Assembly: GCF_900110215.1 (NCBI RefSeq)
Contig: NZ_FOCX01000025.1
Location: 1 to 48,560 of the forward strand
Length of the DNA: 48,560 nt
Direction: 5' to 3'
Source: Halorientalis persicus
GTDB lineage: Archaea; Halobacteriota; Halobacteria; Halobacteriales; Haloarculaceae
The notes beneath the pieces were generated by a model, which worked only from the letters and a program-made list of their open reading frames with translations, was not told the origin of the DNA and did no database searches. Both the position numbers and the translations under genes were made by a program. Of this stretch, positions 16,867 through 36,241 are shown piece by piece (position 1 is the first letter of the stretch; every line of letters starts with the position of its first letter).

Positions 16867-17856
16867 TCAGTCGTCTGACCACGCCCCAAGGCCGGATTGT
16901 TCGCTTTCAGTTTGGTCAGTTGGGACTACTGCTGAGTTGTAGCCGCCTTCCTTTCCATCGTTTTTCTGGTTCCACACAAGCTGTGTTTTCAGGTAGTCAA
17001 CCCGTTCGTTATACGCATTGATGTGATCACCCACCTCGGACTCAGACACGCCGAGACGGATGAGCAATTCTTCCAACTTCGATTTGTAATTGTAGAGCGT
17101 TTCAACCCAGAAGTGCGAATCATAGAGCGGAGACTTAGTCTTCTGTAGGGTGAGAAGAATTGTCTCGATACTGTGGTCTGGGAATGTAGCACGCGGTAAT
17201 GCGGCGATCTGGACGATATTTTCTCGAAGGAGTACGTCCCTGAACGGCGCAAATGTGTCCCGCAGGAGCGCCTGTTCGGGAAGAATGACTGACATCCAAC
17301 CGCCGACCTTCAGGTGGTTAATCATAGCTTCGGTGAAGGGGGCATACAGTGGGAATGATCCCTCTGTTGAGTTGTACTGCTCCCGGTATTGGTCGCGAAG
17401 ACCCGTGTCGATGTTTTTGTATCGAGAGTACGGCGGGTTCGCGATAGCGAAGTCGAACTTGGTGTCGAAGTCAGCGGTGAGGAAGTTCGTTTCTTTGATG
17501 GTGACGTCTCCGTGGACTGGCGTTTTCTCGGCCGTTGCTCCTGGCGGATATGAGGGTGTGTGGGCTCGACGTGAGTCGTCTGAAAGCGACGGGGTATGTG
17601 GCTCGGATTTACCGAACCGCTGGTCCAGAAATCCAGCCCGGTTCTCATTTGCCTCGACGAGGTGAGCGTCTGGAAGCGGCTTCCCTCTCACACTGCAGTA
17701 TCGTTTGACTGCTGCGAAGAGAGGGCCACGCCCTGCCCCCGGGTAGAGAAGATTTGTTTCGTTGTCGTCGTTGTTGTGAATGCAACTCAACAGTGAGAGC
17801 GCGACTTCATCACTGATTGCGGGCGGTGTTGGGACGAATCCATCTTCCGCTGGCAT
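16867..17856 (-). CDS. N6-adenine DNA methyltransferase
   Basis: The 329-residue enzyme has the SAM-binding motif I LLYPGAGRGPLFAAV (about 36-50) and the catalytic motif IV NPPY (140-143) in FDFAIANPPYSRYKN, in the order of gamma-class N6-adenine methylases. Later blocks (HLKVGGWMSVILPEQALLR, VQIAALPRATFPDHSIETIL) match motifs V-VIII. The C-terminal 90 residues are probably helical and could recognise the target. No restriction gene is linked. The start ATG 17856 is the only good candidate. It is the first of the modification genes and is probably co-transcribed with the radical SAM gene, 20 bases downstream. Confidence 0.92.
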   Translation of the reverse strand: MPAEDGFVPTPPAISDEVALSLLSCIHNNDDNETNLLYPGAGRGPLFAAVKRYCSVRGKPLPDAHLVEANENRAGFLDQRFGKSEPHTPSLSDDSRRAHTPSYPPGATAEKTPVHGDVTIKETNFLTADFDTKFDFAIANPPYSRYKNIDTGLRDQYREQYNSTEGSFPLYAPFTEAMINHLKVGGWMSVILPEQALLRDTFAPFRDVLLRENIVQIAALPRATFPDHSIETILLTLQKTKSPLYDSHFWVETLYNYKSKLEELLIRLGVSESEVGDHINAYNERVDYLKTQLVWNQKNDGKEGGYNSAVVPTDQTESEQSGLGAWSDD

Positions 17857-26582: not shown

Positions 26583-27917
26583 TTACTGGATCTCCGAAAG
26601 CGTCGTCTGCTCGCTTGCGTCGGCCTGATGACTGACCGCGGCCTGGGCAGTTGGTTCCCCTACATTCGCGAGGGGGTTATGGACCTCCTCCTCGTCGACG
26701 ATATCGGCTCCGCAGTCAGGACAGCAGTAGGTTTCACCATCTTCGATGAGCGTATCGAAGGGGAGCTCCGTTCCACAGTCGATGCAACGGTAGTCGTATG
26801 GGCCGTAGAGCGCTTGTTCTCGGTTAGACAGCTGTAGGTCCCAAATGTTGAGTGCAGTCCCCTCACAGTGCCGACAGCGGCCCGAGAGCTTGGCCGCTGG
26901 ACGGCCTGGGTCCAAGACCTTTCCACAGAGGCATTTGATTCGGACGTACTCGTCTACGTCGTAGTCTCCTGAAGTGTAGTCTCCAATGCTAGTGACTGTC
27001 ACTCCGGTCGTATCGACGTCGGGGTTGATTGCCGCGGCTTCTGAAATAACAGCATCGACGTCACGGCGGTAGTCGCGATAAGCGATGAGCATGTTCACCC
27101 AGTTGAAGGAGGGATACTCGGGTTTGCGGTAGTTGACCCACTCGTCTTGGAAGTGTTTGGGGCCCTCGTGGGCTGTCGTTGTCGCGTCGTAGTAAAGCCG
27201 AGAGTCCCACGCATTGCTATCGACACTATCGAGTGCAGCAAGGATGTCTGGTGAGTTCATCACGGTCTGCTTGACGCCAAACCCGTGCAGATCGACGCGA
27301 GAGGGGAGTGCGTCACGGACCCGTAAGACTGTATTGCGGATTCGTTCGGTTTGGCCGCGCCGGCACACGCTACCGATCCCCATCTTGTCGGTGATCAGTC
27401 CGTGGTCCTGCAAGAGATCCAAATGCTCCAGGTACTCTCGCACGTCGTAGCCTTGGAGTACGGCGACAGGGTCGGCGTCGAGTCCGCGGTTCGATGCAGC
27501 TTCGATCGTTTCGATGTGGTCGCGGAGTGTCCACTGTTGATGTTGCGTCACTGACCGGTCCCACCGGCGGAGTAGATCCGGTTCGCAGGCCCAGTCCCTG
27601 AGTGCGAAATGCTCGATCAGGTCGTCACGCTCTTCGATAAACGTGATATAATCAGAAATCGAGGTCTCGTATTCAGGGTTTGAGGAAAGCGTCGAATAGC
27701 CGCCTGAGTCCAGAATCCAACTGGGCCCGTCCCAGGGTTCGTTCATCTTCGTCGCGTAGGACACCATCGCGTATTCCGGGGCGTTGAAAGCAGCTGGATC
27801 AAACGGAGTTTCATCGAGTGTTTCCGTGTGGTCGTCTTTGGACAAAGCCCGAAGTGCCTTCCTGGAAGACCCAGATGAGACTGTCCAGACGAAGTCCAAT
27901 TCATCGGGTGAGGGCAT
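26583..27917 (-). CDS. tRNA-guanine-transglycosylase-like protein (DpdA-like), with two C-terminal zinc ribbons
   Basis: The 444-residue protein follows the TGT barrel motif by motif: WILDSGGYSTL (67-77) for the base-binding DSGG, VAVLQGYDVREYL (151-163) for the VQG loop, MGIGSV (179-184) for the IGGL loop, LHGFGVK (210-216) for the MGVG strand, and DSVDSNAWDSRLYYDA (230-245), which should hold the nucleophilic aspartate. The C-terminus has two zinc sites (CLCG 329-332 with CRHC 348-351; CIDC 378-381 with CCPDC 398-402). Family knowledge: TGTs swap guanine for 7-deazaguanine in tRNA, and DpdA relatives do so in DNA of phages and of a halovirus. A DNA role here is inferred from the methylase neighbours. 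Precursor genes are absent, but archaeal hosts make preQ0 for archaeosine. Confidence 0.85.
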   Translation of the reverse strand: MPSPDELDFVWTVSSGSSRKALRALSKDDHTETLDETPFDPAAFNAPEYAMVSYATKMNEPWDGPSWILDSGGYSTLSSNPEYETSISDYITFIEERDDLIEHFALRDWACEPDLLRRWDRSVTQHQQWTLRDHIETIEAASNRGLDADPVAVLQGYDVREYLEHLDLLQDHGLITDKMGIGSVCRRGQTERIRNTVLRVRDALPSRVDLHGFGVKQTVMNSPDILAALDSVDSNAWDSRLYYDATTTAHEGPKHFQDEWVNYRKPEYPSFNWVNMLIAYRDYRRDVDAVISEAAAINPDVDTTGVTVTSIGDYTSGDYDVDEYVRIKCLCGKVLDPGRPAAKLSGRCRHCEGTALNIWDLQLSNREQALYGPYDYRCIDCGTELPFDTLIEDGETYCCPDCGADIVDEEEVHNPLANVGEPTAQAAVSHQADASEQTTLSEIQ

Positions 27918-30315: not shown

Positions 30316-31266
30316 TCAACTGAGCGCCGTTGTCCACTTCGTCTTCGTCCAGTCGTGACTGTAGACCGTGTCAGAACTGGCTGTGACTGTCTTCTCACCC
30401 TCGTACTCGAAGTCGGCGGCCTTGTAGCACGTCCCGTCGTTCCCGTCGATACCGGCGAGGGCGATGAGCCGGTCATAGTCCGTGTTGTGGCGCAGCCAAC
30501 CCCGAACCCGTGCGAGCATCCACGAACTCGTGTTCTGTGGCCGGTTGGGATGGTTCGCAAGACGGGTCAGATATAGTGTGCCGTCGTAATTGTCGATCGA
30601 GTTGTTGTGTGGGTGTTCCACGACCGCGGCCGAGGTCAGGTAGCCGTCGACGGTCGCGATGAATGCGTACCGCCAGCCGTGGACGCCATTTTGTCGGTGC
30701 CAGACCTGTCCATCCGCTGCTCCGCAGAGAAACTGGTTGACGATTCGATTTGCTCCCTCTCCGTGAATCCGTGCAAAGGCGAGATCACTGCACGTCTCCG
30801 CCGTTGGGTACGCATCTTCAGCACCGATCTTTGGCTGTTCCCAGCGTGAGTATGCCCATTCGGGGCTATCCCCTGGACGTTCATTGGGGGTTGGATGATG
30901 AGGCATTTCGGGCGGTGGCGTTGTTCGCCAATCATGGTCAGCAGAGTGGACTGCAGCTGCCAGAGGGGCCGCCTTGCAGGGGAGTCGGTTGGCGAACTGT
31001 GTGTACCAGACACCGTCCTTCCGGTGAAACCCGACGATACGGTGTCGAGTGTACGTTGCGAAGACCTCTTTGACGTGAGCGTCTCCATTTTCCCCTTCGT
31101 ATGTATGTTCTTGCGTGTCCGAGACTGTGCGGTGGAATATGTCACGCTCGCCCAGAGACGATGGCGGGTGTTGGACTTCGCCGTCGTTATCTAAGAAGTC
31201 CTGTTGTTCGGACTGTCGGAACGTGGTCAGTGCCCGCGTTCCGCCCTGCTGAGAGGTCTTCGGCAT
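30316..31266 (-). CDS. Mom-like GNAT-fold DNA modification protein
   Basis: The 316-residue product ends in a GNAT-like domain that follows the phage Mu Mom pattern: YAFIATVDGYLTSAAVVE (200-217), LYLTRLANHPNRPQNTSSWM (231-250), DYDRLIALAGIDGNDGTCYK (263-282) and AADFEYEGEKT. The block L-x-R-x3-H/D-P-N and the late GT-x-Y-K/Q-A-A-[DN]-x-x-Y-x-G are what I recall as the Mom-family signature. Family knowledge: Mom converts adenine in phage Mu DNA to an N6-acetamido-type modified base and blocks host restriction. The first ~190 residues are an extra region not found in Mu Mom (231 residues total). ATG 31266 (MPKTSQQ) fits the four-base gap to the upstream gene. The DNA substrate is inferred. Confidence 0.72.
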   Translation of the reverse strand: MPKTSQQGGTRALTTFRQSEQQDFLDNDGEVQHPPSSLGERDIFHRTVSDTQEHTYEGENGDAHVKEVFATYTRHRIVGFHRKDGVWYTQFANRLPCKAAPLAAAVHSADHDWRTTPPPEMPHHPTPNERPGDSPEWAYSRWEQPKIGAEDAYPTAETCSDLAFARIHGEGANRIVNQFLCGAADGQVWHRQNGVHGWRYAFIATVDGYLTSAAVVEHPHNNSIDNYDGTLYLTRLANHPNRPQNTSSWMLARVRGWLRHNTDYDRLIALAGIDGNDGTCYKAADFEYEGEKTVTASSDTVYSHDWTKTKWTTALS

Positions 31267-31270
31267 GATA

Positions 31271-31579
31271 TTAGGGAAGCGAGCAGTCGATTGTATCGTC
31301 TTGCGGTGCTCGTCGGATTCGGATCTCGTCGTCGACGAGTTCAATTCGTTTGATGCCCGCTGTTTCCAGAACGGCTTCTGCGACGGAGGGACCGTTTACT
31401 TCGATGTCTGCAGTGGTCACTTCTCCCTCGTACAGTGCCGGGTGTTGGAGGCTGGGGCCGTCGAATTCGTAGGCGTAGCCGAGGATTTCCCAGTTCCGCT
31501 GGTCGGTGTGGAGCGTTTCGCCGAGGATGGCGTATCGAGTCGTCGTGTCGTCTTCCGATCGGGTTGATGGTTCGGTCAT
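31271..31579 (-). CDS. Small hypothetical protein
   Basis: The 102-residue product (MTEPSTRSEDDTTTRYAILG at the start) has a beta-rich body (WEILGYAYEFDGPSLQHPAL, EVTTADIEVNGPS) and a C-terminal helix (AEAVLETAGIKRIELVDDE). It is unrecognised. ATG 31579 is preferred over the longer frame, which is a shifted reading of the upstream gene. It lies four bases before the Mom-like gene and could be its partner. Confidence 0.68.
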   Translation of the reverse strand: MTEPSTRSEDDTTTRYAILGETLHTDQRNWEILGYAYEFDGPSLQHPALYEGEVTTADIEVNGPSVAEAVLETAGIKRIELVDDEIRIRRAPQDDTIDCSLP

Positions 31580-32669: not shown

Positions 32670-33587
32670 TCATGTAGAGAAGGCTCCAAGCGTCTCCTGG
32701 TGTTCGTCAGCGTTGGAAACAGCGTCTCGGGACTGGAACCGGAACTCGGACGTTTCGAGATACTCACGGTTGGTGTCGATAGCTATCCATCCCCGATCGT
32801 GTTCGGCGGCGACGGCGCCGACGACATTCGATCCGGCGAAGGGATCGAGAATGACGTCACCGGGTTTGGAGACGCGTGGAACGAGGTACTCGACCAGCTT
32901 GCTGGGGAAGCGTGCAGGATGCCAGTCACGGCCTGCTTCTCGGCACATCTGGAGATATTTCGTATTCGATGCGGTGTTTGAGATGGAGAGCGCGGCTGGT
33001 TCTCTGTCCAGCATGACCTCGACGAACCGGTAGTAGGACAGGAGAGCGCTCCCATCGAGTGGGGAGGGATCGCAGAACTTCGAGAGATGCTTTCGGAGTG
33101 TCGCAGTGTTGATGCCGAGCATGGTCGGGTCTGGGAGACGACCTGGGTCTGGCCGGGCATCGCGAAGCCCGAGTTTTGCGCGAACGAATTGGTCCAACGT
33201 GCGCTTTGCATCGACGAAAGTGTCTTTCGATACCGACGGTGATCGGAGTGTTGCCAGATGTGGTAGTGGGGGCAAATCGCGGTCCGAGGGGTGCGTCTGT
33301 AGGTCCGATGGCTGAGCGACGAAGTTGCCCGGAATTTCGAAGTCACTCGGATGGGCGGCATCGGGAACTGTTCCGGCAGACCGGTTGGACAGCCCCCAAG
33401 CTGTGTCGTCGACGTCGATGTTGAACGAGCCTTGGACCGGGGCCTTCAGCGGCGGGGCGGAATCGTTGTCGCCGCCGAGTGGTGTGAACCAGTGGATTGG
33501 ATTGGCCATGCACCGAACGCGCGTTTTCCGGTTTTTCGCGTATTCCTGCGAGTCGTTCGGATCTGTGCCGGGATTATACCACGTCAC
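32670..33587 (-). pseudogene. C-terminal half of a split beta-class (N4-cytosine-type) DNA methyltransferase
   Basis: This 305-codon frame begins at a GTG three codons after an in-frame TGA and immediately enters what is the middle of a known methylase type: TWYNPGTDPNDSQEYAKNRK, with the recalled full-length block being a Y-W-Y-N-P stretch following motif IV. It ends with HPARFPSKLVEYLVPRV, then DVILDPFAGSNVVGAVAAEH (motif I), then RGWIAIDTNREYLE. This motif order, catalytic motif before SAM motif, is that of beta-class enzymes. The other half is at 33769-34317, with a ~180-base gap and a frame break between. It could still work as a two-chain enzyme if both are translated. Confidence 0.8.
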
Positions 33588-33656
33588 AGCGTGTCATAGA
33601 AGTCTTCACATGGTACAGTCATATTCATTATCTTTTTAGAGAGTAACAGACGTAGA

Positions 33657-33682
33657 AGAGCGTGCACTAGGTGCACGACTCT
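33657..33682. repeat. Inverted repeat in the gap of the split methylase
   Basis: AGAGCGTGCAC (33657-33667) and GTGCACGACTCT (33671-33682) are inverted copies differing by one bulged base, with three bases between. It lies in the 180-base non-coding gap between the two methylase halves, in AT-rich flanking sequence unlike the coding halves. It could be the remnant of an insertion or a regulatory site. Confidence 0.5.
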
Positions 33683-33768
33683 TAGAATCGTTCAAAGATA
33701 GGAATTTTACTCCTGTATAGTGACCATTCTTGCTCAGTTGGCGTTATTCGACGTAGCGACTGTGGTTT

Positions 33769-34317
33769 CTATGGAGCCGCAGACAGCAGGCTTGGAGCCG
33801 GTAACGCTGAATCCGTCGATAGCCATGAGAACCGTTCTATGACACCCTCGGTCAGTCTGCCGACGTGGCGGGCCCGCTGGGGCGGAGAGACCGTGTCGGT
33901 TGTCTCGGGGGGAGAGTATCCTCCTTCAGTACCATCGGACTGGTGGGCGGAGAGTGGGCTTACAGAGACGTTCTCGGAGCCACAGAAGACAGCGGGGAGT
34001 GTGTGTTGGTAGGTGGTCCGAACTGGTTTCTCTGGTTTCCAGCCGCCACCAACCTCGATGAGAATGCTCCCCGTAGGCTTCACGACCCGTGCCAATTCCG
34101 CGGCGAAGGGATAGAACCAATCGAGGTAGTCGTCTGCGGTCGGATTCCCGTATTCGAGGGGATCCGCGAGTCCGAATGGTGGTGACGTGATGACGGCGTC
34201 GACGCTGTTCTCTGGGATATCCGGAAGTGATTCCCGACTGTCTCCGTGGTATGCAGTCCCGTTTTCTCTTGTATATACGGGACTACTGGAAATAGCAGTC
34301 TCTGGTTCTGTCGCCAT
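33769..34317 (-). pseudogene. N-terminal half of a split beta-class DNA methyltransferase
   Basis: The 182-codon frame holds a start (MATEPETAISSS), YHGDSRESLPDIPENSVDAV, then ITSPPFGLADPLEY with the SPPF catalytic motif, then DYLDWFYPFAAELARVVKPT and LIEVGGGWKPEKPVRTTYQ, which is the expected start of the second third of the protein. After PAVFCGSE the frame changes into a Ser/Pro/Arg-rich sequence with no family likeness, running to a stop at 33769. About 80 codons of foreign-looking sequence thus replace the rest, whose matching continuation is 32670-33587. The break point is near 33990. Confidence 0.8.
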
Positions 34318-34392
34318 GCTACTGCCATGGCCAGTCCACAATCTCTAGCCCAGTCTATCGTCCAGAGATCGTACTGAAAGGTGACCAGAGAG

Positions 34393-34530: not shown

Positions 34531-35457
34531 TTAGTAGCTTTGAATCCCGGATTGTGTTGTTGCCTGATCGTTCCCACAATCGGTTTTCCCAGTGGTGTTT
34601 GGTGTGAGTTGGGACCGATGCTGGCGCTGTTCGGTTGGAATGTCGTCGATCATGTCCTGCACTGTATCGAGATTTGTTTGGGTGTGGTAGGTCTCTTCCA
34701 GACAGGGATCGTCGACGCGGTCGGTCAACATATAGTTCGCCATCAGTAGGACGCTCTTGGCGAACTGGCCGTTAACCGTCGAGATGTCGGTACCAGAGGG
34801 CAGCGTCAGCTGGCGTTGTTTCCATTCCTTGTCGGGAATCTGCTTGTTGACAATCGCGAACTCGGCGGTCTTAGTGTCGAAACTGTCGATGAGGTTCGGT
34901 TCGTTCCGAATCGCGCGGATCATGGTGAGTGAGGTCCCGACACCGAAGGCGTGGAGGTAGGTGTGATCACTGACGGCGTCGCTAATCGCCCTGATTCGAC
35001 GGACCTGCTTCTCCGGGTCGTTGAGTGACTGCAATCCGCCGATGGCCAGCCGGCTGAATTGCTGGTAGAAGGACTCGTGGGCTCCGTAGTGTTCGACGTA
35101 TGGCGGTTGGAGAACAGGCATGATCTCGGGCCGGCGGCCGTCGACGTCCTGGTAGCGGTTGAGGAAGTCGACGAGCGATTCAAGGGTCCGCTCGGGCTCG
35201 CCGGGATAGTCTTTCGGGATGACGATGTCGGCGCTCTGGTTGAGAGCAGATTCGAGTACGTCTTCGTTGGCCATGTTCTCGTCTTCGTAGGCAGAGTCGA
35301 TGATCAGTCGCGTACACATCGCCCGCATGTCGTTGTGGGCTTTGCCGGCGTGCATCAGGCGATTCGGGTACCGATATCGCGGGATGTAGGAGGCGGCGAA
35401 GACGTCGACGTAGGACGAACCGACGATCTCGTTGATGTAGCTCTGTTCACTCCGCAT
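34531..35457 (-). CDS. Compact tRNA-guanine-transglycosylase-like protein (DpdA-like)
   Basis: The 308-residue product is a second, divergent TGT-like barrel. Motifs in order: LIIDSAYED (51-59) replacing DSGG, IMPVLQPPYVEHY (112-124) for the VQG loop, LAIGGLQS (137-144) for the IGGL loop, YLHAFGVGTSLTMIRAI (167-183) for the MGVG strand, and LIDSFDTKTAEFA (189-201), with D194 the probable nucleophile. The canonical CxCx2C...H zinc site of TGTs is not present. Family knowledge: short TGT-like proteins without the tRNA-binding extension are typical of DpdA enzymes acting on DNA. Start ATG 35457 is chosen from an 11-base overlap with the stop of 35447-36241. The relation to the 26583 protein is only at fold level. 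Confidence 0.8.
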   Translation of the reverse strand: MRSEQSYINEIVGSSYVDVFAASYIPRYRYPNRLMHAGKAHNDMRAMCTRLIIDSAYEDENMANEDVLESALNQSADIVIPKDYPGEPERTLESLVDFLNRYQDVDGRRPEIMPVLQPPYVEHYGAHESFYQQFSRLAIGGLQSLNDPEKQVRRIRAISDAVSDHTYLHAFGVGTSLTMIRAIRNEPNLIDSFDTKTAEFAIVNKQIPDKEWKQRQLTLPSGTDISTVNGQFAKSVLLMANYMLTDRVDDPCLEETYHTQTNLDTVQDMIDDIPTEQRQHRSQLTPNTTGKTDCGNDQATTQSGIQSY

Positions 35458-36241
35458 CACGATCACCCCCGGAACCTGCAACTGCACTGCCCGCTTCGGT
35501 GAGCGCCCACCGGTCTGCTGTTGGATCCAGCGTTGCTGTATCGACGCCGGGATCGGTTACGAACCCGACGTGGTAGAGATGCGACTTTAGATGCTGGAAC
35601 TGGCCACTGTAGCCGTTACCGCTCGTGAGCGGATGTTCGCGACCGTTAGGCGAGTGAATGACTGGTGGCTTCTGATCCTGCTGTGCGAGTTCCCAGCCGT
35701 TCTGGAGACAGATCGAACTGGTGAGAGAGATATTCTGTTCGGTGAGATGGGTGACGAGATCGGGAAGCGTGACTGCGTTTGAGATGCCGACGGCGCCACA
35801 GTCCGCGAGGGCAGTGAGAATTGAGTCGGCAGGTAGGTAGTGCTGATAGACGCGCTGGCCGAGACGGGCCCAGAACGGCGCTTTCTTTGCGAGACGGGCG
35901 TGGGATCTTTTGAGGTCTTCGAGGGCGCTGAGAGCCGCCGTTGACGTCTCGAATTCGTCCGTCGCGACGGCGACGACCTGCTGACCGACAGATCCGACCT
36001 CGAATTCGCGAGTGATCAAGCCCAATTCCTCGGCACCGAGTCGGGCGTGTCCGACTGTCTGAACGAGCGAGTCGGTGATGTGCCGAGTGGTTGCTCCGTC
36101 GGCATACACCGCGAGTGGGACGCCGAGGTAGTTTTTCGGATGGCTGAGGTTCAGTTGTGCGATGTGGGGCGTTGTCGGATCGTGCTCCGGCTCGGTGTAA
36201 CCCGCGTCTGGGTCTCGGGGAGATGGTTCTGTCTGTGGCAT
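35447..36241 (-). CDS. Hypothetical protein, coupled to the compact TGT-like gene
   Basis: The 264-residue protein is unrecognised. It has NLSHPKNYLGVPLAVYADGA near its start, a middle with TAALSALEDLKRSHARLAKK, a helical section (LPADSILTALADCGAVGI; VTLPDLVTHLTEQNISLTSS) and an end that looks like a winged-helix tail (HLYHVGFVTDPGV, WALTEAGSAVAGS). Haloarchaeal winged helices often close with a DPTADRWALTE-type segment, so it may be a DNA-binding protein. Its stop overlaps the TGT-like gene by 11 bases, which points to coupled translation and a shared job. ATG 36241 (MPQTEPSP) is preferred over 36250. Confidence 0.68.
   Translation of the reverse strand: MPQTEPSPRDPDAGYTEPEHDPTTPHIAQLNLSHPKNYLGVPLAVYADGATTRHITDSLVQTVGHARLGAEELGLITREFEVGSVGQQVVAVATDEFETSTAALSALEDLKRSHARLAKKAPFWARLGQRVYQHYLPADSILTALADCGAVGISNAVTLPDLVTHLTEQNISLTSSICLQNGWELAQQDQKPPVIHSPNGREHPLTSGNGYSGQFQHLKSHLYHVGFVTDPGVDTATLDPTADRWALTEAGSAVAGSGGDRDAE

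Follow-up and report, generated by a model that had tools for sequence, protein, structure and literature searches.

The window analyzed here is a stretch of 48,560 nucleotides of Halorientalis persicus DNA (contig NZ_FOCX01000025.1, assembly GCF_900110215.1), in which two overlapping genes on the reverse strand encode a compact TGT/DpdA-like protein and, directly upstream of it, a second protein that we call PART. These genes and the features of the window that bear on them are as follows.

34531 to 35457, reverse strand: compact TGT/DpdA-like base-exchange enzyme (predicted from the open reading frame, invariant columns, AlphaFold model, and Foldseek/VIA comparisons)
35447 to 36241, reverse strand: PART, the dedicated partner, 264 aa, directly upstream of the compact enzyme at 8 loci
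35447 to 35457, reverse strand: 11-base overlap of the partner stop and the enzyme start, read from the sequence
34534 to 34554, reverse strand: PIP-box-like motif QSGIQSY, residues 302 to 308 (TTQSGIQSY with its flank), in a disordered tail
26583 to 27917, reverse strand: longer DpdA, 444 aa (PF23859, E 1.3e-25; PHROG 1279, E 1.3e-31)
30316 to 31344, reverse strand: Mom-like DNA modification protein (Pfam Mom, E 6.7e-7)
32670 to 34341, reverse strand: N6/N4 DNA methyltransferase in two pieces, 33769-34341 and 32670-33587 (Pfam PF01555)

The surroundings (15779-36241) form a dense modification island, nearly all on one strand, that contains radical SAM, Eco57I-type and C5 methyltransferase, Dam, DpdA, Mom-like, and N6/N4 methyltransferase genes. 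The last of these is split, with about 264 extra bases between its halves compared with Halorientalis regularis TNN28, where the orthologue (L004:9975-11357) is one intact 460-aa open reading frame.

The open reading frame at 34531-35457 encodes 308 aa, and a GTG further upstream, at 35487, is an alternative start that would give 318 aa. An earlier, sequence-only reading of this DNA had named the motifs LAIGGL, LHAFGVGT, and DSFDTKT, reported that the CxCx2C site is missing, and placed the enzyme start 11 bases inside the partner gene. All three motifs are found in the translation, the overlap is exact, and the zinc site is indeed missing; the protein has three scattered cysteines, none of which is conserved in the family alignment. 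Comparison with the TNN28 orthologues (91% identical for the enzyme and 88% for the partner) gave dN/dS values of 0.10 and 0.28, respectively, consistent with purifying selection; both are therefore real, constrained genes. The genome has a paralogous pair on a different contig, C33 (locus L020:8033-10881), the enzyme being about 46-47% and the partner 35% identical to the window copies. DpdA and Mom genes lie close to this second pair, the Mom-like protein sharing 48-50% identity with that of the window, and next to it lies a third compact enzyme, which is extended at its N terminus and whose tail reads QQHLGAF. The partner and enzyme genes also overlap or touch at L020, L021, L032, L078, L080, and L081, and it is likely that the overlap couples translation of the two proteins.

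Single-profile searches with the 308-aa protein gave only sub-threshold matches to TGT models (Pfam PF01702, 14.3 bits with a gathering cut-off of 26.3, E 0.022; PHROG, E 0.0074; NCBIfam, E 0.022), whereas the C33 paralogue scored 28 bits against the Pfam model, above the cut-off. The curated DpdA models (Pfam PF23859 and NCBIfam NF041059) did not match the 308-aa protein up to E 1. Profile-profile comparison of the compact family with longer DpdAs, in contrast, gave a match (P 96%, E 2.4e-9) along the DS...D...Q...GG...H stretch. An AlphaFold (AF2) model built on a 14-row alignment had a pLDDT of 75.6 overall and above 85 for most of residues 1 to 200. The matches listed by Foldseek against the PDB were all TGT (E 1.7e-7), VIA aligned the model with TGT over about 237 residues (Z 17.6, 3.3 Å), and the BFVD matches were phage queuine tRNA-ribosyltransferases and a protein of phage nt-1. 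The structure prediction that the sequence-only reading had proposed as a check therefore yields the TGT (beta/alpha)8 barrel.

In E. coli TGT, D89 is the general acid/base and D264 is the nucleophile. Alignment with E. coli TGT, the host arcTGT, and DpdA places D54, D83, Q117, G140, and D194 of the window enzyme at the positions of E. coli D89, D143, Q187, G213, and D264. The invariant columns of the joint alignment are, in E. coli numbering, D89, S90, D143, Q187, G213, G245, D261, and D264, for which the counterparts assigned by motif are D54, S55, D83, Q117, G140, G174 (the glycine of HAFGVG), D191, and D194. D54, D83, G140, H169, and D194 are invariant in both family alignments (15 and 14 members). 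H169, which follows the IGG motif, aligns with H211 of the longer DpdA in the profile-profile comparison and is probably the counterpart of the histidine named for DpdA, H196 in phage 9g (PMC6884629). The glycines and the aromatic residue that follow the general base in TGT (DSGGFQ or DSGGYS) are missing after D54, and because these residues differ, the base pocket may differ from that of TGT. The product of 34531-35457 is thus, as had been proposed, a TGT/DpdA-fold protein with the TGT catalytic residues and without the zinc site.

With the tRNA TGTs (Z. mobilis TGT, E. coli Tgt, and archaeal arcTGT) the window enzyme shares this barrel and the five catalytic equivalents, but it lacks the CxCx2C zinc site, the PUA domain, and the GG(F/Y) after the general base, and it is only 11-14% identical to them. 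With bacterial and phage DpdA (S. Montevideo, 7UI4; phages 9g and CAjan) it shares the TGT-derived fold and, likely, the DpdA-type histidine, although there is no confident sequence match to 7UI4 (E 0.31), at 308 aa the protein falls short of the 406 positions of the NCBIfam DpdA model, the DSGG loop is lost, and a dedicated partner and a PIP-like tail are present. Its closest annotated viral relative is gp33 of Halorubrum tailed virus 29 (HRTV-29; MZ334526), a 243-aa member of the same compact family (27% identity over 67%) that has the same catalytic residues, has no zinc site, and has been annotated and discussed as a DpdA (PMC8651126). HRTV-29, too, is a mobile element of haloarchaea, and it lacks preQ0 genes, as does the window as far as its genes were scanned; it differs in having a DUF6884/YaaA-like partner, gp32, instead of PART and in a tail without a clear PIP box. 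The compact form without zinc had been singled out: the zinc site is truly absent, but because gp33 is a published DpdA, the window enzyme belongs to a kind already known and is less unusual than supposed. What is new here is the conserved dedicated partner and the occurrence of C-terminal PIP motifs far above chance.

Strong matches to a compact-enzyme profile of 15 members were found in 25 of 392 Halobacteriales genomes, and further relatives occur in HRTV-29, on haloarchaeal plasmids, and on several IMG/VR contigs. One of these contigs (L098, IMGVR_UViG_3300009703_000010) carries three divergent compact TGT genes in 9 kb, two of whose products end in the PIP-like QHEFGxFF. Beside the compact TGTs of G142 and G383 lie related uncharacterized proteins (L024:8242-9309 and L041:476-1426) that by eye look like degenerate TGT paralogues, with no profile match.

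The sequence-only reading had supposed that the product of 35447-36241 may be a dedicated partner, had suggested searching for the pair in other haloarchaeal genomes, and had named as contrary results a pair conserved nowhere else together with no structural resemblance to TGT. Neither is the case. PART homologues lie directly upstream of a compact enzyme at eight loci (the window, C33, TNN28, G141, the Salinibaculum KK48 plasmid [G142], G383, G399, and G156), and in a 42-row tree the enzymes linked to PART form one deep clade (support 95/92) in which every member is paired. No genuine stand-alone PART was found elsewhere in the loci examined, and a search of IMG/VR for PART found none. A seemingly TGT-less PART in G199 was rejected, as it is a truncated copy of a nuclease-like protein of about 415 aa.

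This longer protein, annotated as hypothetical, is conserved among haloarchaea and is also encoded at full length by the host. PART matches its C-terminal ~215 aa (hhalign P 100%, E 2.7e-46), and the PART profile has matches in 234 of the 392 Halobacteriales genomes; most of these matches are C-terminal halves of the ~415-aa protein. The N-terminal half carries an invariant PDL...EAKG, which by eye resembles a PD-(D/E)XK-like signature and would make the protein nuclease-like; PART has no counterpart of this putative nuclease region and goes with the compact enzyme. Locus L123 (G000:C50) carries a ~415-aa protein with the PD-(D/E)XK-like N terminus and the PART-like C terminus. Pfam, NCBIfam, and PADLOC provided no name for PART or the ~415-aa family, and PDB sequence searches with either gave chance matches only. 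AlphaFold with a two-sequence input gave PART a pLDDT of 33, too low for a fold assignment, and its winged-helix look is an impression by eye only. From homology to the ~415-aa protein, PART may bind DNA, and it looks borrowed from that putative nuclease.

Such an origin also suggests another role, in which PART would be an interfering mimic, a nuclease-less copy that blocks the DNA sites or the partners of the host PD-(D/E)XK-like protein while the compact DpdA acts alone. The presence of the full-length protein in the host and in most haloarchaea sampled, and the absence of the putative nuclease half from PART, are in keeping with this idea. A free inhibitor should also occur on its own, however, and all stand-alone PARTs that we found are directly upstream of a compact TGT and belong to one co-inherited clade; because the pairing is this strict, we consider a decoy unlikely.

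Other clades of compact TGTs have a different neighbor. A DUF6884 gene is adjacent to the enzyme gene in 12 loci and fused to it in L097, and some lineages have neither PART nor DUF6884. Neither the window nor the surroundings of the PART pairs at L020, L021, L022, and L032 yielded a DUF6884. DUF6884 (PF21818) proteins are YaaA-like and DNA binding, with a base flipped into the site in a model, and have been linked to lesion recognition (PMC11701544). They show no detectable sequence relation to PART, but since they sit beside or are fused with compact TGTs elsewhere, they plausibly play the same role; in bacterial phages DUF6884 occurs without an adjoining TGT, none being present within the 2-2.5 kb read around it in Liefie, Kronos, Naby, and ChaoS9. 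Because the enzyme is without the zinc and PUA parts of the tRNA TGTs, we assign DNA contact to the partner and infer that PART in the window clade, and a DUF6884/YaaA-like protein in other clades, would each supply it to a minimal enzyme core.

The enzyme ends in a tail that is disordered in the AF2 model (pLDDT below 50) and accessible, and its last residues, QSGIQSY, fit a PIP motif of the QxxhxxaB type. The motif has only one aromatic residue because it ends at the C terminus; the published archaeal motif is QXXhXXaa, with KTTQSTLDSFFK as consensus peptide (PMC4929162). QSGIQSY is kept in the TNN28 orthologue, in which the preceding linker differs. Across the family, 16 of 42 compact enzymes have a strict PIP motif among their 25 C-terminal residues, compared with 0.6 expected from shuffled tails (relatedness between the enzymes being ignored) and with 11 of 443 background open reading frames (2.5%); a loose definition raises the count to 24 of 42. 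The motifs are spread across most clades and are degenerate in several members of the PART clade. Two other modifiers of the window have PIP-like ends, QETLGAF in 32670-33587 and QSGLGAW in 16867-17856. This tag probably docks the enzyme on the DNA-copying machinery (PCNA), in which case modification would follow replication; our literature search found no account of PCNA-linked modification enzymes of archaeal viruses.

The window also encodes the longer DpdA, with zinc-ribbon-like stretches at its C terminus, and the sequence-only reading took two TGT-like enzymes on one element to suggest sequential or sequence-specific base exchange. As a general arrangement the former is weak: 22 of the 25 genomes with a compact enzyme are without PF23859, and TNN28 has the compact enzyme and PART without a PF23859 protein; as a rule, then, the shorter protein is not dependent on the longer. 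Elements that carry both may exchange bases sequentially, and exchange may also be sequence-specific. A stronger version, in which the compact enzyme and the longer DpdA would form a heterodimer or a sequential pair comparable to eukaryotic QTRT1/QTRT2, draws on the presence of both in the window and on contig C33, on overlapping compact and longer genes at L033 and L104-L107, and on weak co-occurrence (3 of 25 genomes, Fisher P = 0.04). So rare a combination does not resemble a QTRT1/QTRT2-type pair, and neither does the retention of full active sites, with their catalytic residues, in both the compact and the longer enzymes; the PF23859-less genomes, TNN28 among them, likewise make this arrangement improbable. 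The overlapping genes are found on viral contigs and a Halobaculum plasmid, and at L033:11908-14209 and L104:8028-10248 the longer DpdA has an N-terminal zinc ribbon.

We favor, with a probability of about 0.6, the reading that the two genes, carried by a haloarchaeal mobile element, form a two-component system for base exchange in DNA, tethered through the PIP motif, supplied with preQ0 by the host, and conferring nuclease resistance. The DpdA-like enzyme would excise guanine from DNA through a covalent intermediate between D194 and the deoxyribose, with D54 as general acid/base and the base held by D83, Q117, and G140. In its place, preQ0 or a related 7-deazaguanine would be inserted; we attribute its supply to the host archaeosine pathway, as QueC and arcTGT are present in the host genome. 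The partner would provide the DNA contact and the C-terminal tail would tether the enzyme to PCNA. The element would thereby resist nucleases of the host, among them perhaps the PD-(D/E)XK-like host protein with which PART has a region in common, and the system may in this way mark and protect element DNA. DpdA relatives are known to install preQ0, and the DNA of halovirus HVTV-1 carries a 7-deazaguanine, although no DpdA was found in that virus (PMC6884629).

Two other activities are much less likely. An RNA-acting TGT that modifies tRNA from a mobile element would share the fold and the catalytic set of the tRNA TGTs, but the lack of PUA and zinc domains, the profile match to DpdA, the PIP-box-like tails (none is found on the host arcTGT tail), the surrounding DNA methyltransferases and Mom, and the DNA-binding DUF6884 neighbors in sister clades make it very improbable. 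We give slightly less credence still to a repair or glycosylase-type activity that removes damaged or foreign-modified guanines instead of installing a protective base: TGT-type chemistry does release a base, a PCNA tether would suit repair, and DUF6884 proteins have the lesion-recognition link, but the base-exchange residue set is complete, relatives insert preQ0, and viruses and plasmids carry the genes together with further DNA modifiers.

A more specific form of the favored base-exchange system, which we offer tentatively and consider rather doubtful as a whole, is that a minimal DpdA core, docked on PCNA by its PIP box and aimed by an exchangeable recognition protein, either DUF6884 or PART with the region it has in common with the host PD-(D/E)XK nuclease-like protein, gives newly replicated element DNA a 7-deazaguanine at the sites which that host nuclease would recognize. 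For the question of how enzymes of the DpdA type select their DNA and target sites, a minimal core with interchangeable partners and a PCNA tag would offer handles on both specificity and timing. If the recognition mode of PART is common to the widespread host nuclease-like protein, that haloarchaeal gene would gain a testable role in DNA restriction.
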